DNA of 64,000 nt, from the NCBI RefSeq assembly GCF_047663525.1, contig NC_092604.1, forward strand, positions 12,511,501-12,575,500, written 5' to 3'. The DNA is from Anas platyrhynchos. Taxonomy: Eukaryota; Chordata; Aves; Anseriformes; Anatidae. The position numbers and the translations under genes were made by a program. The notes under the pieces were generated by a model. That model made no database searches, was not told where the DNA came from, and saw nothing but the letters and a program-made list of their open reading frames with translations. The stretch's first letter is position 1; every line of letters begins with the position of its first letter. Of the stretch, positions 11,131-50,400 are shown piece by piece.

Positions 11131-12171
11131 GAAAGGGAAGGGAGCGGGAGATGTGAAAACTGTGGGCAGCCAGCCCCAGCCACCTCCCCTGCCGCCACGT
11201 GGGGCTGTCGGTGTCGGCCGGTCCCAAGCAGCGTGGGGCTGGCTGTGGGGCCGTGGGCTCGGCCAGGTCCTACACGTGCTGAGGCTGGGTGCTGGGTACG
11301 TGCGAGGGGGACAGCACCAGAGCTGGCAGGATGGGGAAAAAGAGCCTCTCTATGGGGTAAACCACTCGGTTTCCTGAGCCAGCCCGCAGGGCTGCGGTGC
11401 CATGGGGCCATTGGGGGCTGGAGGGGGCAGGAAACGCCGGTGGCCTCCTGCTGCTGGATGGGAGCGCACAGAAACAGCCTCCAAATCCACCGTGCTGAGC
11501 TGCAGGGCTCAGCCCCAAGCACTTTGCTGCCAGGGCTCCAAGCTGGGCGCACCAGGAGGGCCCCACAGCACTCGTTTGGTGCAGTGTGGCTGCATTTCGT
11601 TTTGGGGAGCAGACACGTGGCACGAGCTTGGCACGTGTGCTGCCCAGTGGGGTGCTGGCAGCACCGTTACAGCAAAACCAGTCCCTCGGTGCTGGTCCCT
11701 CGCTGCCAGTACTCATCCACCAGGAGCAGCCGGCACCTCCACCCTGCTGGAGCCCACCGAGGGCACGCTCAGCTCACATTGGGGTCAGGCTGGTGCACTT
11801 GCCCACGGGGCACTCACAAACCCCTCCGCCACCCATCCCCGGCCACCCCCAGCACAGGCAGGTCACCGCCGAGAGGGACGATCGTGGCACGAAGCCGCCG
11901 TGGAGCCGCGTGCTCCTTCCCAGCAGCAATTTGGAGCCGGCTGTTCCAGCAGCAGCACCTTTCCACTTTCCAGTTCAGCAGGCTCCTGGCTCGGCCCCGC
12001 TGCAGCCGCTTCCACCGCGGGTGGCGGAAAAACGCGGCCACCCCCGGGGTGCCCGGGGCTGTTGCTGCGCTGCGGGGGGTGACGGCAAAACCCCCGGGAC
12101 GTGCCCTGGGACTCTGCCACGGCCCCCTGCCAGCACGGGAGAGCAGGAGCGGCCAGACACGGTGCCAGGCT

Positions 12172-12256
12172 CATGGTGCCACCGTGCTCATGGTGCCACC
12201 GTGCTCAGGGTGCCACCAGGCTCCGGGTGCCACCACGCTGGGGGTGCCACCAGGCT
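12172..12256 (+). repeat. Five tandem 17-bp units upstream of the PTGS1 promoter
   Basis: There are five contiguous units of exactly 17 bases, starting at 12172, 12189, 12206, 12223 and 12240. Units 1 and 2 are identical (CATGGTGCCACCGTGCT); the others differ at 2-5 positions. All keep the GGTGCCACC core. It ends about 220 bases before the PTGS1 start codon, so length variation could alter promoter spacing. Confidence 0.9.
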
Positions 12257-12289
12257 CCCCGGGGCTGTCGCAGCGGGGGCTGCAGCGAG

Positions 12290-12600
12290 GAAATGCTCGG
12301 GGAGAGGGGACCGGGGGGGGGATGCGGAGAGCCGGGGGTGGGCACGGCGATGCCGGGGCCGCGGGGACCGGGGCACGGAGGCGGCCCCGTCCCGTCGGGG
12401 GCGGGCGGAGGCGCGGCGGGGGCGGGGGCGGCGGGGCCGGGCCGGGCAGCGGCGGCCCGCGGCGGAGCTGCCTCTCGCCATGGGCGGTGGGTGCCGGCCC
12501 CGGGCCCCCCCGGCCGGGCTGCGGCTTCTGCTCGGCCCCGCGCTGCTGCTCTGCGCCGCCGGGAGCGCCGCGGCCGCCGGCACCGGCACCGGTACGGGGC
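12290..12600 (+). promoter_or_regulatory. CpG-rich promoter region of PTGS1
   Basis: The sequence before and across exon 1 is extremely GC- and CpG-rich, with GC boxes such as GGGGGCGGGCGG near 12397-12408 and GGGGGCGGGGGCGG just after. No TATA box is visible. This matches the TATA-less, Sp1-type promoter known for mammalian PTGS1. The transcription start cannot be placed exactly. Confidence 0.6.
12480..12591 (+). CDS. PTGS1: PTGS1 coding exon 1: start and signal peptide
   Basis: The ATG at 12480 (context CTCGCCATGG, a good Kozak match) opens 37 codons plus one base. The peptide has two Arg, then a Leu/Ala-rich core ([18 protein letters not shown]), a clear secretory signal. The donor is GTACGG. 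The phase of 1 fits exon 2, where G+TG gives the Val of VNPCCYYPC. Confidence 0.85.
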
Positions 12601-15600
12601 GGGGGGGGGGGGAGCCCGAGGAGGGACCGGGCGGGGAGGGGGGTCCGGGGGGATCCGGTTTGGGGAGGGGGATGCGCCGGGATCCGGCAGGGGCCGGGGA
12701 CCCGGAGGGATGTTTGGGGGTGGGGGGCGCGGGGCTGGGGGCGCTGCCCCCGGGAGGGGCACGGGGGGAGAGCTCGGGGACCCCCCGGATCCCCTCGGTG
12801 CTCCCGGCGCTGGCTGTGTCCGGGGGGGCCACGCGTGTGTCCCGGGGCACGATCGTGCCCATGTCCCGCTGGTGCCCAGCCCCGTGGGATCGGGACACGG
12901 CGGGGAAAAGAGCTGGGTCCTGGGGGTCTCCCCCGTGTGCTGCGCCCCCCCGGGGCCACGGGCAGGGACCGGAGGAGCCCCCGCGTGTCCGTGGCCGTGG
13001 GAGCCCCCCGGTGCCGCAGCCCGGGGCATCGAGGGGCACCGCTGCTCGCAGCCTCGTGGGGCCACCTCCCTCCACGTGCTGCCCCGGAGCAGCTCCCTCC
13101 AGGTCCCCAGGGGGACCCTGCCTCCGGTCCCGCTTCCAGGAGGTGATTTTCCTCCCTTCCACGGAGAAAAGCCCACCCCGGGTCCAGCTCAGGGAACTTC
13201 TCGGGTTTTGCAGCTCCCCACTAAGCCAGGAACGTGGTTTGCGTCCCTCGGCGGGGCTCCGGCTGCGTTTGGTGTGAGGGATGCTGCCCCCATCTCCATG
13301 GCCTGGGGCTGGGGGGGCAGGAGGTGGGTGCAGCACTCCAAAGGGAGCTGGCTGGGGCTGAGCGGGGCAGAGGGGGCTGCTGGAACAGGGCACGGCTTCC
13401 TTCCCCCTGCCCCGCACCCCTTCCCTGCAGCCACCCTGCTGGGACTTATCGGCGTTGAGGCGGCTGTTCCTGCCCAGAAACAATGCCCCTAAGGTGGAGA
13501 CTTCCCCCTTTCGGCACCGTGTGTGTCCGAAACGGGAACATGAGCTGAGGGTTACGGCATTTCGAGGCATGGGAGCGAGTGCTGCGGGAGGAGGAACAGC
13601 GCCCGGACCGACACGGGGCTGTGGCACCCCACTGTGTGTCCTGGCGGCAGGGCTGAGCGCGCTGGGTGCCACGGGATGGGCCCAGGACTGGTTGGGGACA
13701 CCCAACCCATGGTGGCTGGGACAGGCACACACCAGGCTGGTGCAGCCACGGGCAGCCCCAAGACGCTGGCTGCAGGATGGGGCCAAAGCAGAGCTCACCA
13801 CGTGGGGAAAGAACCCGTAGCTGGGATGTACGCAAAAGGATGCTTATCTTCCGAGCTCTAATTAGCAAGGGAGATACCTGATGGAATTAGGGGAACTGTG
13901 CTGTGCCCCGAGGTGCTGCCAGCAGAGCAGATGGGCTGCGGGAGGTGTGCAGCTGGAGGACCACGGCCTTAATCTTGTGCTCAGATCTGCTCTAGAAGAC
14001 AGAATAACAGGATGCTGGGCTTCGCCTGCAGCCTCCTGCCCGCTTGATGGTTGCTGCTCCGAGCACTTCTCAGCCCCTCGCAGGCTCCACCTTGCCTCTG
14101 AGCAGCGATGTTTGCTCCCCGTTGAGGTTTTCCCAGGCTGTGAGCTGAGCCAGCCTGGTCCCGTGGCGTTTCTCCATTTGCCCCCATGGATATTGCCCTT
14201 GGGAGCTCGTCTGCAGCCTTACCCTCGGGGCTGTGCTTCTGTTCAAGAGCAAACCTTCCAGCAAAATAACCCCACGGCCCCTCCAGCCGCTCCTCGTGGA
14301 GGTCCCACACCGTGGAGGCCCCTGGATGCCAGCACCGTGCCCGGGGTCCCACCACGGGGAGGTCGGTTGGGCTCAGACCCCGTGGGTGCCTTTGTCAGAG
14401 CCGATTTTGATTTGTGCCCATTTCTGCCACCTGCGGTCAGGTTTCCTCCCCTGTCCCTGTTGGGGTTTCGGCTCCGCTGCACGGAGGGGACGGCGGAGCA
14501 CGGGCACAGCGCGGGGCTGCTGCTGGGGCATGGCCATGTCCCCCCCCAGCCCCGCTGCTGGGAGCAGCCCCCGTGCCCGGCCGCAGGTGCGGGAGGAGGA
14601 GCCGCCAGCCCCATGTGCGGCGCAGCTGCGGCCCTGGCAGGTTGCTGTCACTGGCGGTGCGGCCAGAAGTGGTTGCAGATGACAATCTGGCTCCGTGGCG
14701 CGGGCTGGGAGCAGCTCACGGAAAACCCAAGGAAACCATCCCCGATGCGAAAAACAAGCGTGTGAGCCGTTTGTTGTCTTCGCAGCCGTGCGCAAGACGG
14801 GAATGTCCCACCGGGCAAGCCCGGCTCCAGCCTGCACATGATTCACCCCACGTCGCTTTGGCTGCGGTTTGCAGAGCGGATGTCGTCCCCCAAAATCTGG
14901 CATTTCTCAGCGCCGATCGCACGTGTTCACCGGCTCAGCTGTCACGGAGGGGGCCGCGATCCAGCGCGGGGGCCGGGAGCGGCTTTCCCCACACCTGGAG
15001 CCGTCCCGGCAGGATTCCTGCCCGGGGTGGAGAGAGGCCGGGAGCGCCGCGGGGGGCGGCTGTCGCGGGCTGGGACACGCCGCGGCCCCTCGCGCCCTTG
15101 TGGCTGGGACATGCCGCTCCTGCCCCACCTCAGGGCCCCCACGGCGCTGACACCGCTGTGACCCTGGCAGGAGGCAGCTGCCTGCGGGGCCCTGGCACGG
15201 AGCAGCCACCCGGCCCCACAGCAGCGTCCCCGTGTCCCCCCCCCTGAGCTGGCCGGGGCAGGGAGCGGGGCCACTCCTGCAGATGTTTGTGGTGGAGCCA
15301 AGCGCGGAGCTACTGGCGCGGGAACTGCTCCGGGGATGCTCTGGCTGCGCTGCGGCACGGTAAAAGTTTCCGTGCTACAAAAAGCTGCAGGCGGGTGGTC
15401 TGAAGTTAATTTGTCCGAGATAAATAAGGACCTGCCCGCTGCCGCCCGTCTGGATGTGTAACGGAGGCTGGGATGGAAAGAGCTGGGATGAAAGGGAGCC
15501 CGAAGGAAGGGCTGGGAGCTGAACTCTGCGAGCTGCCCCCCCGTAGCATGAGGGGTTCGGGATCCCAGGGCTGAGAGCAGTCGTGAGAGCTGGCAGCCCC

Positions 15601-18600
15601 CAGGCAGCCCCCACCCTGTCCCAGCCCCGATCTGCCTGGGAAACTGGGAGACTTTGCAAAATGAGCTTGATTTTTCAAAGATGTTCGTTTTTAGCTTCAA
15701 TTTCCTATGGAAAAATGTGCTGCGCGTTGTGCCTGCCCACCTCCCCCCGGCGTTAGAGCCTGGCTCCGGCCTCCAGCAGAACTTGGAGCCGACTGGGCTG
15801 AGCCCCGCAGGGCCGAGGATGCTGCAGCCACCCCCTGGTCACAGCTCCCGGAGCCTTCTGCGGGGTGGCACCGGGGCAGAGCCCGGTGGGTGCCGCGGCT
15901 GTCCCCGCGTGTCCCCACCACCCCCATGCCCCATCCCTCCAGTACACGCAGGGGTTGTTTTATCCCAGCGAGACGTGGTTTTGCTCCTCTCCAGCTTTGT
16001 CGTCCCCCGTTTGGGGCAGGGAAAGCAGCAGATTGTGGGGTGCCGGCGCTGCTGGGGCCGCGTCTCTCCAAGCCCCGACCTCCCACGCCGACGCCGGGGA
16101 AGGTCCTGGCGGGGGGGGCAGCGGCTCCAGGCCGCCCACGCGTCTGCAGGAGCTGGCCCCAACGCGCTGCCCGGTGACACCGGGGGGGCACCGGCAGCTG
16201 CTGGGACCCCGGTGGCCACAGGCAGGGCAGGACGGGGCCCTCAGCCCCTTAGCCCCTTATCTGGAGGCTGCAGCTGGGGCGCGCGGGCAAGGAGGTGGCT
16301 GCGGAGGAAGCGGCAGGGCCAGGGCTGGTGCCGGGAGGAAGGAGCCCCGCGGGCAGCCCCTTCCACCCGCACACGGGGCTGGGGCAAAGCAGCCGCGTGC
16401 CAAAGCAAACTCCAGCCCAGACAATTGCCATTATTAACAAAGCTGACGTTGTGTTTGCAGGGGTTTGCCAGCTCCTGGGCTCTCGGGGCACAGGGACCCC
16501 ACACGGGATGCTCTGGCAGCACCTTTCGGCCTTTCTTTCTTTCCCAGCTGTGTTCGGGGCAGCGGTGGCACCGTGGATGGCCGGTGACCTCTCTGTCTCT
16601 CTCCCCGCAGTGAACCCGTGTTGCTATTACCCCTGCCAGCACCAAGGGGTGTGTGTGCGGGTTGGCCTGGAAGGCTACGAGTGCGACTGCACGCGGACGG
16701 GGTACTTCGGGACTAACTGCACCTCGCGTAAGTCCCCCTCCCGGAGGAGCCCCGGCACCGCACGGGGGCTGCGTTAGCAGGGTGAGCGCTGCAGCATCCA
16801 GTGCTGAGCCATGTGCCCGGGTTTGTCTCCCCCAGCCGAGCTCTGGACGCGCCTCCACAACCTGCTGAAGCCCAGTCCCGCCTTCTACCACTTCGTCCTC
16901 ACTCACTTCAGGTGGTTTTGGGACATCATCAACAGCACCTTCATCAGGGACACGCTGATGAGGCTCGTGCTCACAGGTGCGGGGGGCGATTCCCGGGAGG
17001 GGTTGGGACAGGTCCTGGGGCCGAGCAGGACTCCAGCAGCACCAGCATGGGCAGGGGACAGCGGGGCCACCGAGCATCTCCTGGTGGCTCCAGTTTGGGG
17101 CCACCTCCCCGCGAGCCGGCCCGCAGGGGACATTAGCAGTGGGGGCCCAGGGGGCTGAGCCCCGCACGCACCGGGCTGGGAGCCAGCTGAGACACATGAG
17201 CTGCTCTCGGCACGCTGCAATCCCCTTCCCAAGGGCTCTCCAGCAGACACAGGGAGCAGCTGGTGGAAATATGGAGCTGGCCCATGTTAATTCTGTCCCT
17301 ACATTTATCACTTCGCGTAAATATTTAGGTTCCAGCTCTTGGAGCTGTAGGAACACATTCGCGAGGCTCCGGCTGTTGGTTTCCCCATTTCTGCATGTTT
17401 GTCATCTAATTCGTCATGCAGGAATCCACTTCGTGCAGCAGCACAACCCCCCTGCTCCTGCAGGGAACTGCAGCCCCTAAAAGGCTGGGTTTGGGGGGGG
17501 GGCACAGCACAGCAGGACGTGGCCGGGCTCTGCCCACCACCTCCTGGTTCCTGGGGGTCTGGGTGCTGCCCCGCGGCACTGACTGCTCTCTCCTTCCAGT
17601 TCGTGCCAACCTCATCCCCAGCCCCCCCACCTTTAACTCCAACTACGGCTACATCAGCTGGGAGGCCTACGCCAACGTCAGCTACTACACCCGCATCCTC
17701 CCGCCGGTGCCGGATGACTGCCCCACGCCCATGGGGACCAAAGGTACGTGCCCGGCGCAGGACCGGCACCACGAGGCGATGAACACGGCTGGGTTTGCAG
17801 AGCAGCACCGGGTCCGTCCCTGCTGCAGCACCACCGCATCCCAGTGCCCGTGCCTGAGCCCCCACGGCACCGCTGGCACCTGCCGGGGCACCGGCGTCAC
17901 CCCCGTCCTCCGCAGGGAAGCGGCAGCTCCCCGACGCCCAGCTCCTGGCGGAGAGGTTCCTGCTGCGGCACAAGTTCGAAGCCGATCCCCGGGGCACCAA
18001 CCTGATGTTTGCCTTCTTCGCCCAGCATTTCACCCACCAGTTCTTCAAGACGTCTGGGAAGATGGGGCGAGGCTTCACCAAGGCGCTGGGGCACGGGGTG
18101 AGGGCGCGATGCGAGGGTGGCCGGCGCGGGGCGAGGGGGGTCCAGGGGTGGGCACGGCCAGGTGGTGCTCCCGTCACACGGTGCTGTCTCGCAGGTGGAC
18201 CTGGGGCACTTGTACGGGGACAACCTGCAGCGCCAGCACCAGCTGCGGCTCTTCAGGGACGGGAAGCTCAAATTCCAGGTACCACGTGGCACCATGTGCC
18301 AAAATGCGTCTCAGTTCCGTGCTCCGAGGTTGTTTGAAACCCACATCCCTCTGGCAGCTGCCAGGACAGGGTGGTTTTCTCCCCTGTTCCCTTTCTACCA
18401 CCCTGTTCCTGTCTCCCCGAGGTGGTGGATGGAGAGGTGTACCCCCCCTCGGTCACCGAAGCGCCGGTCCACATGGTGTACCCGCCTGCCGTCCCCAAGG
18501 AGAAGCAGCTGGCGATGGGTCAGGAGGTGTTCGGGCTCCTGCCGGGGCTCTGCATGTACGCCACGCTCTGGCTGCGCGAGCACAACCGCGTCTGCGACAT

Positions 18601-20849
18601 CCTGAAGCAGGAGCACCCCACCTGGAGCGACGAGCAGCTCTTCCAGACGGCTCGGCTCATCCTCATCGGTGAGGGCTGGCGGCACCGCGGGTCCCCGCGT
18701 CCCACCTCCCACAGTGACCTGGTGCTGTCGGGCTCTGCAAGGCCAGCCCGGCTTTAAAGGCTGGAGGAGTTCCTCTGGCAGCCTTCTGGGGATCGTTGGC
18801 TTTAGTCCATCAGAAAATTTACTTTTGAGCAATTTAGCCATCATTCTGAACTATTCCATTTTAACGGTCTGGATTTTGGATGGAGGCGACTGTGTGGAAT
18901 TACAGTAGACTTACGAAAGACCCACGATACCACCACACTGCCTCTGAGCTCCAGACCAAGCTCAGCTTTCTCAGAAACTGTTTTGTTTTTGGCAAGCTGA
19001 CCTTTCCCGGTGAAAAAGATAAATGACAGAAACTCCCAGCCAACAACAAGCCCGATGTCAGGCAGGTCCGGGCGGCAGAGGGTGCGGGGGTGCAGGGACA
19101 GGCTGCCATGGGGAGCCTCACTCAGCACATGAGTAACCGGGGCTGCCCCGAGCCCTGGGGGAGCCGGGGCTGATCCGGGGCTGTGGCTGCTCCTGCTGCC
19201 AGCTGACGCCTCCTCCTCTCGCCTCCTGCCCAGGGGAGACCATCAAGATCGTCATTGAAGACTACGTGCAGCACCTCAGCGGGTACTTCCTCAGCCTCAA
19301 GTTCGACCCCGAGCTGCTGTTCGGGAGGCAGTTCCAGTACCGGAATCGCATCGCGGTGGAGTTCAACCAGCTCTATCACTGGCACGGGCTGATGCCAGAC
19401 TCCTTCGTCATCCAGGGGGAAGAGTACAGCTACGAGCAGTTTCTCTACAACACCTCCATGCTCCTGGACTATGGCGTGGAGGCCCTGGTGGAGTCCTTTT
19501 CCAAGCAGACCGCGGGGATGGTGAGGTCCTGCTCTCTGCAGCACGTCCCACGGGGGGCTGCGGGACCCCGGGCCCAAGGCATCATCAGAGCACAGCCACA
19601 GCCCACCCATAACGAATGTCCTGGTTGTGTGCAGCACTCACAGCCTGTTCCCAAGGGCAGCAGGCAGTGTGTGCGTTGGGGAGTCCTCCCCATGAGCAGT
19701 GGGGTGAGGTTGGGTCGTGGCAGCCCCATTTGCTTGATCCCAGGACACTGGAATAAGCATCAGGGCGAAGCCAGCAGCGTGCGGCACCCTGCTGGGTGCA
19801 GCCTGGGCACGGGCACAGCTCGGCTCACGCTGTTCTTTGCTGCCATCACATGGATGTTTTCTTCCAAGTGATTACATCGATGCTTCTGACATGGGCAAAG
19901 CGACACTGCTGGCACACAGCCCTGCTGCTCTTGGGGTGTGCAGGCTCCCTCCGCGACCCCAGACCCCCAAACTCAGTGATTCCTTCCCTCCGTCCTGGCC
20001 GGTGGGACGCTGCCATCCAGGGCTTCTCCTGCAGGAGATGGGCTCTACCCCAAACTGTGCCACCGCCGGTCTTTGGCACTGCCCCTGGCACCCCCTTGTC
20101 CCGCTGTGGCCACGCCATGCCCAGGATGCAGGCAGGGAGGCCGGGCTGTGCCTCCATGGAGGCTGGAGCCTCCCCGTGTCTCATGTGAGCGTGCCCCTCC
20201 TTGTCTTCTCGCCCTCCAGATCGGCGGGGGCCAAACCATCAACGCCAACGTCCTGAAAGTGGCCGTCGGGGTCATCATGGAGTCGCGGCAGCTGAGGCTG
20301 CAGCCCTTCAATGAGTATCGGAAGAGGTTTGGCATGAAGCCCTACAAATCCTTCCAGGAGCTCACAGGTACGAGCACCGTGCTGCCAGCAGGGCCCGCAG
20401 GTCTCCCTCCTGCCACGTCCCCATGCCCCATGGCAAGGCCAGACCCTTGCTGACGCGCCTGGTGTTCACCTGGTGCAGGAGAGGAGGAGAAGGCTGCAGA
20501 GCTGGAGGAGCTCTATGGAGACATCGACGCGCTGGAGTTTTACCCGGGCTTGCTGCTTGAGAAACCCCAACCCAACGGCATTTTCGGAGAAAGCATGGTG
20601 GAGATCGGAGCTCCCTTTTCCCTGAAGGGGCTTCTTGGAAACCCCATCTGCTCCCCGGAGTACTGGAAGCCCAGTACCTTTGGCGGAGCAACTGGCTTTG
20701 AGATAGTCAAGACAGCATCCCTGGAGAAGCTGGTGTGCCTCAACGTGAAGAGGTGCCCGTACGTGGCCTTCCGTGTGCCGGACGCCGCGGCAGGAGGCAC
20801 GGCCGGCAGCAGCCGGGGCGGTGGTGGTGGGCCCTCTACGGAGCTCTAG
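12480..20849 (+). CDS. PTGS1: PTGS1: prostaglandin G/H synthase 1 (COX-1), complete, 10 coding exons
   Basis: This bifunctional heme enzyme of the ER lumen converts arachidonate to PGG2 (cyclooxygenase) and then PGH2 (peroxidase). Ten exons close in phase to 610 codons. In order come a signal peptide (1-30), an EGF-like domain (about 38-75), membrane-binding helices (about 77-123) and the peroxidase/cyclooxygenase domain (about 124-595), ending in the STEL retention signal. Conserved residues, window numbering then ovine: Arg125 (120), His212 (207), Tyr390 (385), His393 (388), Ser535 (530). Glycosylation sequons fall at Asn73, 109, 149 and 415. The C-terminal insertion of COX-2 is absent, and MRRF is adjacent, so this is PTGS1. 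Odd features: the codons equivalent to Ile523 and His513 are Val528 and Gln518, and the signal peptide is in a single exon with the start. Exons: 12480-12591, 16611-16727, 16836-16976, 17600-17743, 17916-18097, 18195-18278, 18422-18668, 19234-19520, 20220-20367, 20479-20849. Confidence 0.97.
12592..16610 (+). other. PTGS1 intron 1 with enhancer-like islands
   Basis: This 4 kb GC-rich intron holds no exon I can support. AT-richer islands lie at 13830-13890 (CTCTAATTAGCAAGG, GATGGAATTAGG), 15360-15430 (AAGTTAATTTGTCC, GATAAATAAGG) and 15640-15720 (TTTGCAAAATGAGC, TTTTTCAAAGATG). Long open frames on both strands reflect stop-poor GC composition. Confidence 0.6.
16611..16727 (+). CDS. PTGS1: PTGS1 coding exon 2: EGF-like domain
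   Basis: The exon has 117 bases, the invariant length in COX genes. It encodes [16 protein letters not shown] through NCTS with the six-Cys EGF pattern and the first glycosylation sequon. The acceptor is CCCCGCAG and the donor GTAAGT. Confidence 0.97.
16836..16976 (+). CDS. PTGS1: PTGS1 coding exon 3: membrane-binding helices
   Basis: The exon has 141 bases and encodes [15 protein letters not shown] to LMRLVLT, the amphipathic helices that insert into one leaflet of the ER membrane and form the mouth of the cyclooxygenase channel. The sequon NST is present. The donor is GTGCGG. Confidence 0.96.
17260..17430. promoter_or_regulatory. Candidate regulatory island in PTGS1 intron 3
   Basis: This AT-rich stretch sits between GC-rich intron flanks, with CATGTTAATTCTG, TTTATCACTTCGCGTAAATA and GTCATCTAATTCGTCATGC. 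It is non-coding in all frames. Its sharp contrast with the rest of the intron suggests selection, which only alignment can confirm. Confidence 0.35.
17600..17743 (+). CDS. PTGS1: PTGS1 coding exon 4
   Basis: The exon has 144 bases and encodes [12 protein letters not shown] to PTPMGTKG. It holds the Arg equivalent to Arg120, which binds the carboxylate of arachidonate and of acidic NSAIDs, and the NVS sequon. The acceptor is TCCTTCCAG and the donor GTACGT. Confidence 0.97.
17916..18097 (+). CDS. PTGS1: PTGS1 coding exon 5: distal heme His
   Basis: The exon has 182 bases, the length typical of the family. It encodes [16 protein letters not shown], then [12 protein letters not shown] with the peroxidase-site His (ovine 207), and ends FTKALGHG. 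The donor is GTGAGG. Confidence 0.97.
18195..18278 (+). CDS. PTGS1: PTGS1 coding exon 6
   Basis: The exon has 84 bases in phase 0 and encodes [20 protein letters not shown] and GKLKFQ, the conserved length and sequence of this exon in COX genes. The acceptor is TCTCGCAG. Confidence 0.97.
18422..18668 (+). CDS. PTGS1: PTGS1 coding exon 7
   Basis: The exon has 247 bases and encodes [11 protein letters not shown] to FQTARLILI. It includes [20 protein letters not shown] and EHNRVCD, core helices of the catalytic domain. The acceptor is short in pyrimidines (CTCCCCGAG), but frame and homology fix the boundary. Confidence 0.95.
18780..19035. promoter_or_regulatory. Candidate regulatory island in PTGS1 intron 7
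   Basis: About 250 AT-rich bases lie in the 565-base intron between exons 7 and 8. Words include AGCAATTTAGCCATCATT, CCATTTTAACGG and GATAAATGACAG. There is no exon and no repeat signature. It is a candidate intronic enhancer. Confidence 0.35.
19234..19520 (+). CDS. PTGS1: PTGS1 coding exon 8: catalytic Tyr and proximal heme His
   Basis: The exon has 287 bases. It holds FDPELLFG, then [12 protein letters not shown] with the radical-forming Tyr (ovine 385) and the heme-ligand His (388), and the YNTSML sequon. The residue after the heme His is Gly, where mammals have Pro. The donor is GTGAGG. Confidence 0.97.
20220..20367 (+). CDS. PTGS1: PTGS1 coding exon 9
   Basis: The exon has 148 bases. 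It begins [17 protein letters not shown], more diverged from mammals than its neighbours, then the invariant [18 protein letters not shown]. The first Ile keeps the COX-1 type residue at ovine position 434 (Val in COX-2). Confidence 0.96.
20479..20849 (+). CDS. PTGS1: PTGS1 terminal coding exon 10: aspirin Ser and ER retention signal
   Basis: The exon has 371 coding bases. It holds the GAPFSLKG loop with the Ser acetylated by aspirin (ovine 530), [16 protein letters not shown], and the C-terminus PSTEL with a TAG stop at 20847-20849. Gln (codon 20568-20570) and Val (20598-20600) occupy the positions of His513 and Ile523. A Gly-rich linker (RGGGGG) precedes PSTEL. Confidence 0.97.
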
Positions 20850-28199: not shown

Positions 28200-28751
28200 T
28201 CAGTCTATTTCCAGATCACTGTCTTCACTGTAACAAGCAGATGGGTTATGTATAGAAGTCAGGAGCACTAGGTCTTTTTCTGGAAGCAGACCACACTCCT
28301 GCAAAAAAGCCTCCAGGTCTACAGCAAAAAAATCTTCTCCAAGCTGGTCAGTGATTCGCACAAAGTTGCCAATGAGCTCACCTGCCTTATAGATCAGCAA
28401 AGCTGGCAGAGCATTATTAGTAAAGCGGGTGCTGGCACCAATGAGCGAACTCTTTACTCTGCAAAATTTAACGGTTGGATACTCAGCAGCCAGGCAGATC
28501 ATACAGCCATTCAGGGATTCACTGCCAGGGATATCATCTTCGTAAATATGGATCATGATCAGTGTGCTTTTATGCTCTTTATCAACCGTGTCCAAAAATG
28601 CTTCTCCACTGGTAATCTCAAAAACCTTTTTAAATTGCTGCCCACTGTACAACTGCTGCCTCATCTCCTCCATCCGCTGCTTCCTGTATCGCTGTAAGAA
28701 TTCCTCATCATCTTCATCGTTGTGAATCATGTTATATTCTTGTAATGTCAT
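28200..28751 (-). CDS. PDCL: PDCL terminal coding exon: thioredoxin-like domain
   Basis: 552 bases in phase 0 run from MTLQEYNMIHNDEDDEEF to EDSDLEID and the TGA stop at 28200-28202. The acceptor is TTTTTTAG. It encodes residues 118-300, the domain that packs against the Gbeta side. Confidence 0.97.
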   Translation of the reverse strand: MTLQEYNMIHNDEDDEEFLQRYRKQRMEEMRQQLYSGQQFKKVFEITSGEAFLDTVDKEHKSTLIMIHIYEDDIPGSESLNGCMICLAAEYPTVKFCRVKSSLIGASTRFTNNALPALLIYKAGELIGNFVRITDQLGEDFFAVDLEAFLQECGLLPEKDLVLLTSIHNPSACYSEDSDLEID

Positions 28752-38372: not shown

Positions 38373-38424
<52 letters not shown>

Positions 38425-41400
38425 AATAATAATATTTTTTTTATTTTTATTTTTTTTAATAGAAGTAGTGTGATATAAACTGTGAATTCCTAAGAGGACT
38501 GAAATTGAAACAGAACTTTTTCCAGAAGCTCCCTAGCTGCAGGTGTGACCTCCTCATCAGGCATTTCAGGAGTGCTTTGACCATCTCTATCATTTTCCAG
38601 CTATAAAGCTGACATAAGAGGCAGATTACAGAAGAGATCATAAGATCATATCTAGATTACATGCTTATCAACTGTTTGAAATTACAGCTAATCCCAGCAG
38701 TTTAGGCACCATATTCTGTTTATTAGAATTCACAAGGGACACACAATTATTTGTCCTTACACAATTATTTGTATAAGAAGGAAGGAAAATAGCTTCCAAA
38801 TTCTTCAGTCCTTTTCAAACAAAGGATATCAAAAAGGAAAAAAAAAGATTAAAAAATAAAATGTGATCTTAAAAAATTAAAGATCACATTTAAATGTGAT
38901 TTTCAATGTAAAACATTCTTAAATTATAGCTTCAATGCTGAAGAGGAAGGGGAAAGGAACAGATTTCCCACGTGACTAATGCTATCAAAAAGTAAAGAGT
39001 AAAAAACTGAAAGCTACCACAGGAACAGTCAGCTGGCTTTTAACTTAGGTATTATTAACAGCCACATATTAACAGTATCTGAATAAGAAGTATGAGATCC
39101 CTAGTGTTAAAGTAAGATAAATGCTTGATATCAGTACAAAGAGTAAGACAAAAGGCTTTGCTATCAACATAATCTACTACTGCACAAAGAAAAAAGTGTT
39201 AATTTTTTTTTGACTAATTAATGAAAGGATCCAGAGACCTTTTTAGACACAGATTGTTAACTTACTTCTATTTGTTCACCCTGCCCATCGGGTTCATCTG
39301 TATCTAGGGCTGACAGCTCCAATTCAATGTCTCGATCTGGCTTTGCATCTGCACAGTCTTCAGTATAATCAGTCTAGAAAAGAATAAAATACTTTCTGTA
39401 AATATCAAGTTGGCTTTTCACCTGCTTCACACAACACTCAAATATTAAAGTGAAAACAGAAGGTGCATTTCTAGGACACAACAATTCTATGATACAAAAG
39501 AGCTAGTTAATCACAAAACTTTGGGCATAGGCAAAACAGGACACATAGCATAATCTGTTCACAAAGCAGTTATATAGACAACAAATACCGATTTGAAATT
39601 TCTGTAGCCAATTAACAGAAGTTTTAGATTTTTAACATGCACAAGTAGAGCAAAGAGAAAGTATCACATGAAGATCATTGGTCACATTCTTCCCATTTTG
39701 CAAATGGATGACTGGAGCAACAGCACAGCAGGTGTACCTACTTGATCTTGGGAAACAACTGGGTGTAGTAACAATAGCAACTTAACTTGCACAGAACAAA
39801 TTATAAATGTTTGGGAACATTAGATTTGAGAGGGTGTTTGTGTGTGCATATGTACATATATACACAAAAAAAAAAAAAAAAACACAAAGATTTGTTTAAT
39901 CCCAATTACCCCTTGCTTTACCTCACCATTCCTCAAATCAATTTCCTTGCTTAAAAGATTTAAGGTAAGGCGACTGCCTTCATCTAGAGAATTCCACTTC
40001 TGTTGCATGGCTAGTGCGTTCGCCTCTCTCTGAAGTAATAATGAGTTACTTTTGGCCTATGGAAAGAAACATACCAGTTATCTACAAGTATACTTAGAAC
40101 ACATTGTCAAACAGCAATATAAAATTAGCTTACAAATGAACAGCTCTCGCTCCAGATGGGTAATTATGTATTCCTTTGATGTCCAACATCTATTTTGCTC
40201 TGTATGTACTGACATTTACCAAGTCCACTACTTTATGCCAAAAATGGTCTTATTGATGTCAATGGAACAGGTCATACTAGCTGTCCTTATGTACCTGTAC
40301 CCCAGGAAGCACCGTGGTACTCATGCCTAGGTAACTTACTGATCACCTTGTTAATCGCACTATTTTCTGTAGGTTATATCAAGAATGTTTATTTGATTAT
40401 TTTTTTTTTTAAGCACATGGTATATCTGATCTTACCTGCTGTAATTCAATACTTAATAAATCTCCAGTGCTGGAATGCTTTCTGTGACCAGACAAATCTG
40501 TAACTATGAATCTGTCCCTTTAAGAGAAAAGAAGGTAAAACTGGGAATTAAAAGCAAGTTTTCTAAATCAAAGGACAAAAAAACAGTCTATCAATATCAG
40601 GTTTTTGGACAAACTACATGACTAAGGTACTACATGACTCTTCATCTTCATGGCAAGGGAGGAACGGGGTATATTAACAGTACCCCAAAGCATCATATGA
40701 AGCAAACATCCTTATTAGTAAGAAGTGGCAAGAAAACTTGAACTAGTCAAGATCAGATTTGGACATGATAGCTTGGCGGTACCTGACTAAATCTTTGATT
40801 AGGTGTCTCAATAGTAACATTGCTAGTAATCTGGTATTATTCCTGTATTTAGTATTAAAGACTACACAAGTTTTAACTTAGTTTTTCAAAGGCTTTATGA
40901 TGGATAGAAAAACTCTGTTGCTTTAAAAATTAAGAAGGTCTATTAGTAAATGTTTTTTAAATTACATTCAGGGATATTAAACATTAGCCAGCTACAGAAA
41001 ACACTTTTAACTGAGTATACCAAGGACAAGTCCATACCGTTCTGCGTAACGTGCTGATGAAGTGGAATCTGAGCCATACGAACTCCATCTCGAGTCAACA
41101 GCATTGACATAAGGGACATAATCTATAACAATTTAAGATATGTTTGCATTATCTTATCTTTTTTTATATATATATACACACACACATATATATATATCTG
41201 TTCTTAAGAAGTAGGACATACAGATATTTTAGTTTTTTACATCTTCATTGCTGTAATGAATATAAGCAAGAAGAAATGCTCGTGATATATGCTACGTTGT
41301 CAGTAGGAAGCCTATACTTGTACCTGATACACTGATGGGCTTAGTTGCACTTCCTTGGGAAGCAGTGGCCTGAATAGGATCTGTTGTGTGGTAACCTGTA

Positions 41401-44400: not shown

Positions 44401-47400
44401 AAAGCTTAATCTCTCTCTTTCTGGCTTACACTTACCCTTGGTAAAGGCACAGTCCTCTGTTCATTTGGGGGTTGACAAGCCACAGAGTAATACCCATCCA
44501 AAGAGTTGTATCTCTCACGTAATGATGTCTGATAGACAGATGAGTGCATCACATCCATGGGAGGTAAAGAATTGCTCCTAATCATATCATCTCGTGGATA
44601 CATCTGTGGGCGCCAGATGCGCCTGCTGTCATAAACTGGAGCATACATTCCAGAAGGGACAGGAGGAACTGGTCCATACGGCTGCGGAGGAGGAGGTTGG
44701 TAAGGAGAATTCAGTCGATCTCGAGGGGGAAATGTACTGTAATGATCGGCATATGGCACGGAAGCAGGTGGGAGGGAGGATTCTGGAACATTATTGGACC
44801 TCACAAAGCGAGGAACACAGGGAGCCACGCCAGCTGGTACTGTTGGAGGTGGTGGATAATAGCCTTGAAAATTGGAAAAAGGTATATTTAATGTGACCAC
44901 AAATGACCCATAAATTTACACCTTCTAAAACTGCAAATAGCATTAAGTAAAGCATTACACCTTTAGAGAATGAAGTGTCACATTTCTACAAACTCACTAC
45001 TGACCCTATCATCTCTTCAATGGAATATAATTTCATGTATGACAACCACATTTGCAGATGCAGTGCTGACCCTTTACTAGCATGACCCAATCTGGAAAAC
45101 CAACTTTCTCTGCCATTGCTACCAGATACTGCAGTTTAACCGTCTATGTAACTAAAAAGTCAGCATTTTAAACATTTCTTTATATACACAGTTAAAATAG
45201 CACCTCTAAAATAAAAGCTATACTGCTAAAAATAAATAATTTCAAAGGTTTCTAAGTAACCATTTCACACTTGGTTTACTCCTTTCCATTGGAGAGAGTT
45301 GCCTGAACACCTCTAACATTTGTTCTGATAGCTTGTGAATGACCCGATGCTAGAACGAAGTCTTAATAGTTTGAATATAAACATGCATATGGCAACCTAA
45401 AAAGGTAATTGAAACCTTTCAAAAACATCTGAGCAAATACAAAGAGATAAGAGCATCATAGTACATGAAAACACTGTTCTTCCCCATGACTCTGAATGAC
45501 TAAAGCAGGAAAAAAAAACTCCTAATAATACATGTAATCCAGCCGGGCATTTCTCTTGTTTATTAAACACTACTAGAAGCAAGCAATGCCTCTGGGTCTG
45601 AATCCTGGCTACAGATATCCTCCATGGATAGGGCACAACCTGTTTAAATGCTAATGAAGGAAAAAGTACATGAGAGATGCTGAGGTTCAAGCTCTGGATT
45701 ATCAAGGTACAATTTGCATAATATACAGCACTCAAAACCAAGAATCACCAATACTGGAAGCAGACTACAGGTCCCTCCCATATTCAGCAGTGGAACAGTA
45801 TTCTACTAAATGAAGATTCAGCTGGTATGAAATCCACAAAACTGAAAGAAATCCACTAAAATGAAACTAGTTATTTCTTAGCACACAACACGCAGGCTTA
45901 TCTAGATGAGAATTCAGACCTATCGTCTCGGTGTGCATCTCACTCACCTGTCTGGGGGTACTGTGGAACTTCATACGACAACTGAGTCCTGGGATCTTGG
46001 AAATATTGAACATTATCAGAATGTGGAGGGTAGACAGGTACTCTGGGAACAAACTGGCTGGATTTTGGAGGCACAGAGTTCACTTCTGTTCCAATGTTGG
46101 GAGGACCAGCTGAGGTAGCTGCCGCCTGGCTTACAGGAGTCTTGGGTGGAGAACCAATTTTACTGAAAAAGGATTACCAAGGAATTGTTAAGCAGACCTT
46201 AACTTATTTCAGGTAATCAGCTCTCTGTGTACACACTCCTATGGATAGTGAAAAGTTGGGTGAAGTCATTTCCTCTGAAATTTTAATTTAACACCCCAAA
46301 CTGATGATATTATCAAATCTCAGACTCTCATAAAAGAGCTCAAAAGCATATATAGATGGTTCTGGTATACCCTCATAAGCTTACGTACTACTTCTAAGCG
46401 TATTCTGGTAAAGACAAAGGCTTTGAAAAATTTAGAGGTTCAGTGTTTCTTAAAGAAGTACCTAAGCATTTTTAAGGGAAAACCCAAAACCTGGAAGGTT
46501 TCCAGGACTATAAAGGGATTTATTATAAAGAGATTTTTCTTGATTTAAGGAAAAAAACACAAACTACTGCATGAATATCAAATTTTGAGTACCATTTTTT
46601 CGTTTTGTTTTTATGTAATAGCCCAATACTAAGTTATATATCAGTTGAGAACAACAGAATAAGATATAGGGAGAGATTTGCAAATTTATATTACATAGAA
46701 CAATTCAACAGCTAAAACAATTGATGTTTGCTCTGACAGCTTGAATCCAAATTCTGTATGATGTCCGCACTGCAGTACAAGATTTTGCACAACTCCGTAG
46801 TCAGTAAGCAACACCAACAACAGTAAGCCAGGACCAGAATTGTACCTATTATCTCTGATCCACAAGCTTTCTTGCCTTGATAATCTAAAGACAAAATATT
46901 GTGGTTAGTTATTTTTATGAAAAAAAATGTTACCAACTTTTCAGGTAGTGATTCTGTAGGGGATCCTGAAACGTTCTGGCCATTGGCTCCAGTCTTCCCT
47001 CCCTTCTTGGTGTTCTCCAAAGCTCTCAAAGAGGTGTCTGCACAGCGAGGGATCAACTGGGGAACACCACTTTCTAGATTAGCTATTCCATTACTACTCG
47101 GCACCATCTTCCCTGTTGCTTCAGGGCTTCCTATGACAGAAATTACGTTTCCCGTAGTGGTCGAGACAGTGCTATTTACGCCAACTTTATTTAGAAGGGG
47201 GAACGTTCTCACTGTTGCACTGATTTTTTTGTTCCTCAGGCGGTATCTACAAACAAACATATGCAAACACAGAAAAGACAGACGAAATTAAGAAATTAAA
47301 GAAATAAAGAAATGCTTATTGTACAGTTTGATTTATTTGTAAAACTGACTAAAGAGAGGGATTGAGATAAATATTATAACCAAAAATTACAGGAGCTTAC

Positions 47401-50400
47401 ACTGGTATTTATTTTCAACAGTTTGGCCGAATCTGCAAGTAGAACATCAGTGTTTTCCCTGTAACCAAAAACCACCTCCTCTAATAAAGATTCACTTCTG
47501 CAGTTCTTTGGAAGTGGATTTGCATGAAAACAGTTTTAAAAATGCATATGTTACATATTATCTAAAAAACTCAATTTACTACTTAATTAAAATATAATTA
47601 ACATTCTTTCCCCTGTGGACAGTATAACCATTCCCTGACAGACTGAACCTACAATGTTTCATAATATATAGTGATAATATAAAGTAAAATTTTATTAAAA
47701 AAAAAAAAAGCAATTAGTTTTCAGGCATTGCTTTACTGTACCTTCAAGTTCACATTACAAGTTGTCACTTCAAGACATCCATGAACCCATTCAGAATGAA
47801 TAAATGCATAGAAGAAACCACTTTCAAAGTTCTAAGGAAAACTGCTTGGATTTAAATTGGGGAAAAAAAGAGTCTCCTATACTCACTTTTCAAGCTCTTC
47901 CTGAGAATGAGCAAAAGTACAGTTGGTTCCTCTTGGACATCCCCCTTGCTGTCGAAGGTCTCGGCACATACTTGTTTTGTATTTGCTATTTGGTTGTGGC
48001 TTAAAAAACACAAATAAAAGACATTCCGCTTATACACCAATAAAAAGAAAAAAATAGCCTAAAAATACACACATTTAAGAAGTTTTAAAATTTTGCATCT
48101 TTAATCAGAAAACTAAGGAAATCTCTTGTTGATGGGTTAAGTACTATGCCATTGTACGAATCTCACTACAGTAAGCTCTCCTGTATTCCATATTTTGAAA
48201 ACGTTAAGTTTTCAAAACCTGAATGCAGCAGTTAACAGTACCACTGATTATTACACAGAAAATGCCATTAATATTTCAGGTTAACCATTTATTTATTTAT
48301 TTATTTATTTTCCAAAGTTGCGTCTTTAAGTGGTAGATTAAGACATATCATACAATAGTCAAATATAGTTACCTGTGGAGTTTCATGTCCTTTTCTACTG
48401 TAATTCTGAATGAAATCCACCAATCCATGTACCACAGTCTTTACAGCCACCATTGCATTTTCCAGCTGCTCCCATGTTGGAGATGCTGCATCTAAAATTA
48501 TTAAAAAGCAGGCTTGTCTCTGTCAATAATTCTAAGTGTATCATAAATGAGACAACTCTACCAAACACTAAAGTAGCACAGAATTCAGAGAATCCTGAAG
48601 AAGAGTTTATGATACACTACATTAATTAACAGGAATTTTGAAACTAGGAACAGAGGTTATCTTATATAATTTACTTTGCTAGATATGAAGAATGTGAAGA
48701 GATCTTAAAATAAGATTCATTTGCATACCTGGATTTGGATCAATATTTGCCAGGAGCTCCAAATGAGGCCTGAGCCTGTTTAAGTTTGCAGGATCACCCG
48801 TGCGCTGCAAGACAATTGTCAATTCTTGTACACTCTTCGCAAAAGACTCTGGAGATTGGAGCTGAAAACAAAGTAAGTATTAGTGTGTTGCATCATACAG
48901 CTGTGAACTGCTAATTTTAAGAAGATTTTCATTAAATTGGTTCCTAAATGCAATAAGCAGTGTCTTCAGATAGTACATAGCAAGTATCAGTGGAGAGAAA
49001 TTTCATTTCTCAACTCAGAATCTGCCCTATGAAGCTTCATCATAAGACACAAAAAAACACTATACTAGAAAACAAAATGTCTTCATATGAAGAGTACACT
49101 ACAGTGAGGAAAAGTCTTCATTCTAGTTTTAATCAATATTTGATAAAACCAAAGACAAAAAAGTAACTGAAGTAGTTCTTGGATTTTCAGTATAACATTT
49201 AACAGTCAAATATAATATTACAAAGATACTAAAACCATCCCCTTGACAAACCTTGTCGATAATGGATTGCATGTGTGATTTATGTGCCAAGTCACCATAA
49301 AGAAGGGAAGACCATTGTTCTGGTGATATTCGAAGTCCTGCTTCCATGGCAATGTGAACAATTTGGGCATCATGCTCTCTCCGCAAAGCCTCATAACTCC
49401 GAAACTCTTCTTTAAGTTGCATCAGAGAAGAATCTTCATCCCTTTTAGTGACCTAATAAACAGCGATATGTAAACACTCCTTCTTTAACAAAAAAATCTC
49501 TAAGACTACCAGAAAAAGAGCTACCCAGCACAAAACACAGAAGTATATTACTGCTGGATATTTACCATATGCTTTTTTTTTTTTTTTTTGGTGTGTGTGT
49601 TCATCTGCTTGCAGGGCATACAGGCAAAACAGCCAGCTCTTCAAGATTTTACAGGGTCAATAGTAAAAAAACTGTGATATCAACTCCACTACTTCCAACT
49701 TAGTAGTCAATCAGATTTGCTTAAGTCACAGAACAGACAAATCAGTTATCTGATAAGATATTTACTAGTTCTACCAGTAGTTGTTGCTGCCCAGAAATAA
49801 CAGATGACAAAGAAACAAGAAAGACTCCAGAATTGACTTAAATGATATAAAGGAAGAAAAAATTTAAGATAGTGGCATTTAAGGAGTACAATATTAACCT
49901 GAGAGGCCACTATAAATATTAAGACAGTTGTCATAAAAGGCAGCAACAGATTTCATGATGTTTGTTTAGTGACATTAAATATTAGATATTACGATAACCG
50001 TGTTCTTAACTGTGATTCAAAAACAAACAAAAAACAAAGCCAAAAATGACAATATTATACTTCTTCCTGATGCAGGCTGGGAGTGTCATGTTTCATGCCT
50101 CTGTATTTAGGAGAGAATTTCCAGAGGAAGAACAGCAATTAGGAATGAGTGGTAATTCCAGAATTGATTCCAGCTACTTCCACATGTGACTATTTGTTCC
50201 TTTGGCAGAGAACTTCAATATTTAAACTACTTCATGTCAGTTTTATGCTATATTCTCTACACTATTCCAATGTGTAGAAACTGAATTTATGTAACATTTT
50301 ATAGATGAAGGATTAATCACAGGAAGGGTTCTTTGGAATTGCACTAGTTCACAGTAACAAACTTCAAATATTTTGAAATTAATTGAGGTGTTTTACCTTA

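Follow-up and report, generated by a model that had tools for sequence, protein, structure and literature searches.

Does a bird's COX-1 have the inhibitor side pocket known from the mammalian enzyme? The question is raised by the PTGS1 (COX-1) gene that lies complete, on the forward strand, within a 64,000-nucleotide stretch of the Anas platyrhynchos genome (contig NC_092604.1, here C18:12511501-12575500), to which we refer as the window. Textbooks treat residue 523 as the switch for COX-2-selective drugs, and the replacement of Ile523 by Val is described as the accepted basis of side-pocket access (PMC12966737). A first-pass annotation, made from the letters of the window, rightly took this residue to govern access to the pocket, and reported Val in its place. 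We find that the window COX-1 carries Val523 together with Gln513, Gly516 and Arg192. We incline, if only just, to the reading that its side pocket is partly opened and rearranged, with Val523 being ancestral and Ile523 a mammalian derivation; the partly opened, rearranged pocket as such appears plausible.

Residues of the side pocket

The window COX-1 was aligned with human and ovine COX-1 and with human and mouse COX-2, and residue numbers given here are those of the ovine enzyme. The window protein is offset from ovine numbering by +5 at all positions aligned with ovine COX-1. Arg120, Gln203, His207, Tyr355, Tyr385, His388 and Ser530, which include the catalytic, haem-side and aspirin residues, are in register with the references, and the sequon asparagines Asn68, Asn104, Asn144 and Asn410 are all aligned. 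Because the offset is constant, codons 518 (CAA) and 528 (GTG) of the spliced coding sequence specify Gln at ovine 513 and Val at ovine 523, as the first-pass annotation had proposed on the strength of the same offset, Arg120, Tyr385, Ser530 and the four sequons. The aligned sequences also bear out its statements that mammalian COX-1 has His513 and Ile523 and COX-2 has Arg513 and Val523, that the residue before the Gln is Pro as in COX-2 (position 512), and that Ile434, the COX-1 state, is retained.

The side pocket is said to be lined by His90, Gln192, Leu352, Ser353, Tyr355, Arg513, Ala516, Phe518 and Val523 (PMC11878451, PMC12842775). With the same animal's COX-2 included, six sequences were compared, and among them Gln513, Arg192 and Gly516 occur only in the window COX-1. 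The description of the pocket residues as COX-2-like, offered in the first-pass annotation, thus fits positions 523 and 512 and does not fit 513, where none of the other five sequences has Gln. At the polar positions 90, 192 and 513 the window COX-1 has His, Arg and Gln, COX-2 has His, Gln and Arg, and mammalian COX-1 has His, Gln and His; as read from the alignment, the window trio is the COX-2 set with Arg and Gln swapped between 192 and 513. Close to 192, Ile188 is replaced by Glu and Pro189 by Ala, again only in the window COX-1. The changes unique to this protein do not cluster significantly near 188-192 (at most 3 of 21 per 8-residue window; permutation P=0.43).

The enzyme is like mammalian COX-1 (human 6y3c, ovine 2oye/1cqe) in the catalytic and haem-side residues, the four sequons, Ile434 and Phe503, but differs from it by C512P, H513Q, S516G, I523V, Q192R, P389G and R433M; of the mammalian-type pocket Ile434/His513/Ile523 it keeps Ile434 and lacks the other two. 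It is like COX-2 (human, mouse and the animal's own on C8) in Val523, Pro512 and His90, whereas Val434, Arg513, Gln192, Leu503 and Thr521 of COX-2 are absent from it and identity is 63.1-66.0%. Of the differences listed, Gly389 (GGG) adjoins the haem ligand His388, and Met433 (ATG) adjoins position 434. The other five sequences all have Pro and Arg, respectively, at these sites.

Divergence of the pocket against background

To what extent the pocket stands out depends on how far the whole protein has diverged. At 128 sites mammalian COX-1 (n=2) is split from COX-2 (n=2), and the window COX-1 has the COX-1 state at 81 of these, the COX-2 state at 23 and neither at 24; if the animal's own COX-2 is counted with the other COX-2 sequences, 103 diagnostic sites remain (62 COX-1-like, 19 COX-2-like, 22 neither). 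The classic trio 434/513/523 comprises one COX-1-like, one neither and one COX-2-like residue, and is therefore not distinct from background divergence. Human and ovine COX-1 agree at 517 sites, of which 92 differ in the window COX-1. For the side pocket (ten sites: the nine residues from the papers and 434) the count is four of ten, namely 192, 513, 516 and 523, an enrichment that is not significant (P for at least four = 0.083). The substrate channel behaves otherwise: 26 of 27 sites are the same as in all four mammalian references, with 523 being the sole change (P for at most one = 0.031). Sites 352, 353, 355, 518 and 523 belong to both lists. The data thus show a nearly frozen channel and a side pocket that changes roughly as often as the background or a little more often, but no special targeting of the pocket.

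A rival reading is that the gene, GC-rich and diverged, has drifted neutrally, the pocket differences then belonging to its general divergence and being pharmacologically meaningless; we hold this to be quite possible, though not probable. The 47 of 128 class-diagnostic sites that are not COX-1-like and the non-significant enrichment in the side pocket both speak for it, as does the pace of change relative to the animal's own COX-2. The window COX-1 alone departs from the other sequences at 21 of 324 otherwise invariant sites and the own COX-2 alone at 8 of 311 (Fisher P=0.022). The 21 unique changes gained 5 and lost 1 GARP residue (Gly, Ala, Arg, Pro), and lost 7 and gained 2 FYMINK residues (Phe, Tyr, Met, Ile, Asn, Lys), while GC content at third codon positions is 0.867 in the window COX-1 versus 0.453 in the own COX-2. 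Although the numbers are small, the high third-position GC content and the surplus of GC-coded residues in these changes suggest that base composition drives part of COX-1 divergence. Drift is, however, harder to reconcile with a rate of unique change that does not exceed the mammalian COX-1 rate (21/324 versus 19/322, P=0.87), by which the window COX-1 is not fast for a COX-1, with the near-frozen channel (1 of 27 changed), and with the control over inhibitor access that is ascribed to residue 523 (PMC12966737).

Direction of change

The direction of the changes was assigned by parsimony over the six sequences (two mammalian COX-1, the window COX-1 and three COX-2). The 19 of 322 sites at which mammalian COX-1 alone departs from a state common to the other four sequences include V523I and P512C, and those of the window COX-1 include Q192R; the two mammalian COX-2 depart jointly at 10 of 313 sites. 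Since Val523 is common to the window COX-1 and all three COX-2, it is most simply inherited. Val523 would then be the older vertebrate state, and Ile523 would have arisen on the mammalian COX-1 side. By parsimony Arg192 appears to be a bird-side change, and 513 and 516 are not polarisable from six sequences.

Inheritance is not the only way in which COX-2-like residues might have come into the gene. Pro512 and Val523 lie in one exon, 11 codons apart, as would be expected if gene conversion from PTGS2 had introduced both into the last exon of PTGS1. A converted tract, however, should share codons with its donor, and in the 26-codon stretch around 512-523 only 5 of 21 residues identical to the own COX-2 use the same codon, against 144 of 378 overall. 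The two residues themselves are encoded differently in COX-1 and COX-2 (CCC and CCA for Pro512, GTG and GTA for Val523), and Asn515 and Ser521, both of COX-1 type, sit between them. The low codon sharing disfavours gene conversion, which we regard as extremely improbable.

An error of assembly or base calling, or an oddity of a single species, is also very unlikely, although the basis is one assembly of one bird. The frame is intact across all 10 exons and each change is a clean codon; by the genetic code, Cys and Pro codons are at least 2 bases apart. At Gln513 or Arg192 specifically an oddity of this species is possible, and the extension of the finding to birds in general, made in the first-pass annotation, goes beyond the one genome on which it was based.

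Expected response to inhibitors

If the pocket is indeed partly opened and rearranged, Val523 would take away the methyl group that obstructs the side-pocket mouth, and Arg192 may provide a guanidinium from one wall, as COX-2 does from 513. Ile434 would keep COX-1-type packing behind Phe518, so that this side of the pocket would remain COX-1-like. The expected outcome would be intermediate or moderately raised sensitivity to sulfonamide and sulfone coxibs, a COX-1-like response to meloxicam and no shift for the classical acids, diclofenac among them. The binding of diclofenac need not be different, because 26 of 27 channel sites are as in mammals, and the contact sites of this drug within the channel are unchanged in the window COX-1.

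The closest engineered counterpart is a COX-1 double mutant, H513R+I523V, which is sensitive to COX-2-selective inhibitors (Wong et al. 1997, by its title as cited in PMC12966737). Like it, the window protein is a COX-1 that has Val523 and lacks His513, but it is natural and has Gln, not Arg, at 513 and Arg, not Gln, at 192. Position 434 has been tied to the Phe518 gate, and I434V described as making an accessible side pocket; the same study reports that meloxicam selectivity has been attributed to 434 rather than 523, while its own energies stress Arg513 (PMC11878451). Docking placed a sulfonamide in hydrogen bonds with both Gln192 and Arg513 (PMC10210234).

Several points weigh against a partly opened, rearranged pocket with ancestral Val523. 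In computed complexes the interaction of celecoxib with Gln192 was stronger for COX-1 than for COX-2 (PMC11878451), and since the drug was computed in COX-1 too, Ile523 does not shut it out absolutely in mammals. The loss of Gln192 could also weaken inhibitor binding, and the side chain of Arg192 may face away from the pocket or pair with Glu188. The polarity comes from six sequences without a fish, amphibian, reptile or invertebrate outgroup and without a second bird, and the side-pocket enrichment, as noted above, is not significant. In the literature searched we found no inhibition data for any bird COX-1. No paper among the matches listed dealt with residues 192, 513 or 523 of bird COX-1, and a query on chicken or avian COX-1 returned 0 papers, most subscription journals being outside both searches. 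Sequences of bird PTGS1 do exist elsewhere, and a chicken COX-1 cDNA was reportedly published in the 1990s; if so, a bird COX-1 sequence is as such not new.

The first-pass annotation had proposed a different pocket, COX-2-like and open with a neutral base, which would change the selectivity of nonsteroidal anti-inflammatory drugs (NSAIDs) in birds and perhaps bear on their sensitivity to them. Part of this stands: Val523 and Gln513, a residue other than His, are real, and I523V+H513R sensitised mammalian COX-1. The proposal overlooked Arg192 (and Ser516 to Gly), and because residue 192 is listed among those lining the same pocket, the pocket would not be simply neutral; Arg513 is absent, and so is the I434V change that gives COX-2 its Val434. 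The link to NSAID sensitivity is unsupported. The channel is mammal-like, and the sites in it that classical acids contact are unchanged. Chickens are reported to be less sensitive to diclofenac than vultures: 50% mortality is given for White Leghorns at 20 mg/kg, and the median lethal dose for Gyps bengalensis is quoted as 0.1-0.2 mg/kg, the cause of vulture gout being described as not conclusively understood (PMC2812785). A spread of this kind could not be put down to a pocket that all birds share, and we consider the proposal as a whole improbable.

The partly opened, rearranged pocket also has a stronger form, in which the side pocket of bird-side COX-1 is naturally open and takes its anchoring Arg from 192 instead of 513, and coxibs inhibit COX-1. 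We think this unlikely. If it were true, 'COX-2-selective' would describe a property of mammalian COX-1, with Ile523 being a mammalian novelty, and not a property of COX-2. Should mammalian COX-1 be the derived form, the coxib selectivity established in mammals is not to be presumed for birds, and because of Val523 and Arg192 the mammalian rules for COX-1-sparing painkillers may not transfer to this animal. Bird medicine is said to make common use of selective COX-2 inhibitors (PMC5612971), and pharmacodynamic data on meloxicam in birds are described as scarce.

Gene model and genomic context

The 10 exons of the window PTGS1 (Table 1) splice into a coding sequence of 1833 nucleotides for 610 amino acids, with GT/AG sites at 9 of 9 introns and no internal stop in the spliced frame; exon 1 and the start codon are placed by the open frame only. 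The top PDB sequence matches of the protein are human COX-1 (1077 bits) and ovine COX-1 (1069), with the best COX-2 at 902. In the alignment it is 79.5% identical to human and 77.9% to ovine COX-1, versus 64.6% to human COX-2, 63.1% to mouse COX-2 and 66.0% to the same animal's COX-2. The gene is the PTGS1 ortholog, closer to COX-1 than to COX-2 and separate from the PTGS2 locus, and, judged by its conserved residues, it should yield a normal prostaglandin H synthase. Ahead of the final STEL the C-terminal tail is glycine-rich, and in this it differs from mammalian COX-1.

In the assembly (1.26 Gb, 42 contigs), whose size fits a bird as does the compact, GC-rich PTGS1, 552 residues of the window COX-1 match 18 places, scored among the best candidates only: nine on C18 (PTGS1), eight on C8 and one, weak and covering query residues 2-64, on C3. 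The C8 gene (locus L003, 2505-7298; read over exons 2 to 10) is COX-2, 84.1% identical to human COX-2 and canonical in having Gln192, Val434, Arg513 and Val523. The same animal therefore has a conventional COX-2 along with the altered COX-1. Scanning of viral and prokaryote genome collections with six peptide patterns from the last exon gave 120 and 591 pattern matches, respectively, and 0 confirmed relatives.

Table 1. Positions in the window of PTGS1, of the codons discussed and of neighbouring features.
Feature	Positions	Strand	Comparison or basis
PTGS1 coding span	12480..20849	+	spliced translation and matches to PDB sequences
PTGS1 exons 1-5	12480-12591, 16611-16727, 16836-16976, 17600-17743, 17916-18097	+	
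PTGS1 exons 6-10	18195-18278, 18422-18668, 19234-19520, 20220-20367, 20479-20849	+	
Codon 95, CAC, His; ovine 90, side pocket, unchanged	16889..16891	+	alignment
Codon 197, CGG, Arg; ovine 192	17990..17992	+	Gln in 5/5 other compared sequences
Codon 390, TAT, Tyr; ovine 385, catalytic tyrosine, unchanged	19374..19376	+	alignment
Gly, GGG; ovine 389	19386-19388		Pro in other five sequences
Met, ATG; ovine 433	19518-19520		Arg in other five sequences
Codon 439, ATC, Ile; ovine 434, COX-1 state retained	20220..20222	+	alignment
Codon 517, CCC, Pro; ovine 512	20565..20567	+	mammalian COX-1 Cys; COX-2 Pro
Codon 518, CAA, Gln; ovine 513	20568..20570	+	mammalian COX-1 His; COX-2, the own one included, Arg
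Codon 521, GGC, Gly; ovine 516	20577..20579	+	mammalian COX-1 Ser; COX-2 Ala
Codon 528, GTG, Val; ovine 523	20598..20600	+	mammalian COX-1 Ile; COX-2 Val
Codon 535, TCC, Ser; ovine 530, aspirin site, unchanged	20619..20621	+	alignment
17-bp tandem repeat	12165-12257		5.5 copies
Phosducin-family open reading frame	28203-28751	-	Pfam Phosducin, E=9.4e-96
TTA microsatellite	38378-38451		about 24.7 copies
Open reading frame resembling RC3H2	44409-44915	-	likeness only, no Pfam match
SNORD90 match	48950-49065	-	49.2 bits

Downstream of PTGS1, on the opposite strand, lies an open reading frame of the phosducin family, which is probably PDCL. Further along are a match to SNORD90, a gene that lies within RC3H2, and an open reading frame that looks like RC3H2 but gave no Pfam match; in human gene order PDCL and RC3H2 are neighbours of PTGS1. 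A TTA microsatellite lies in the same flank, and the 17-bp tandem repeat has its end about 220 bases ahead of the PTGS1 start codon.

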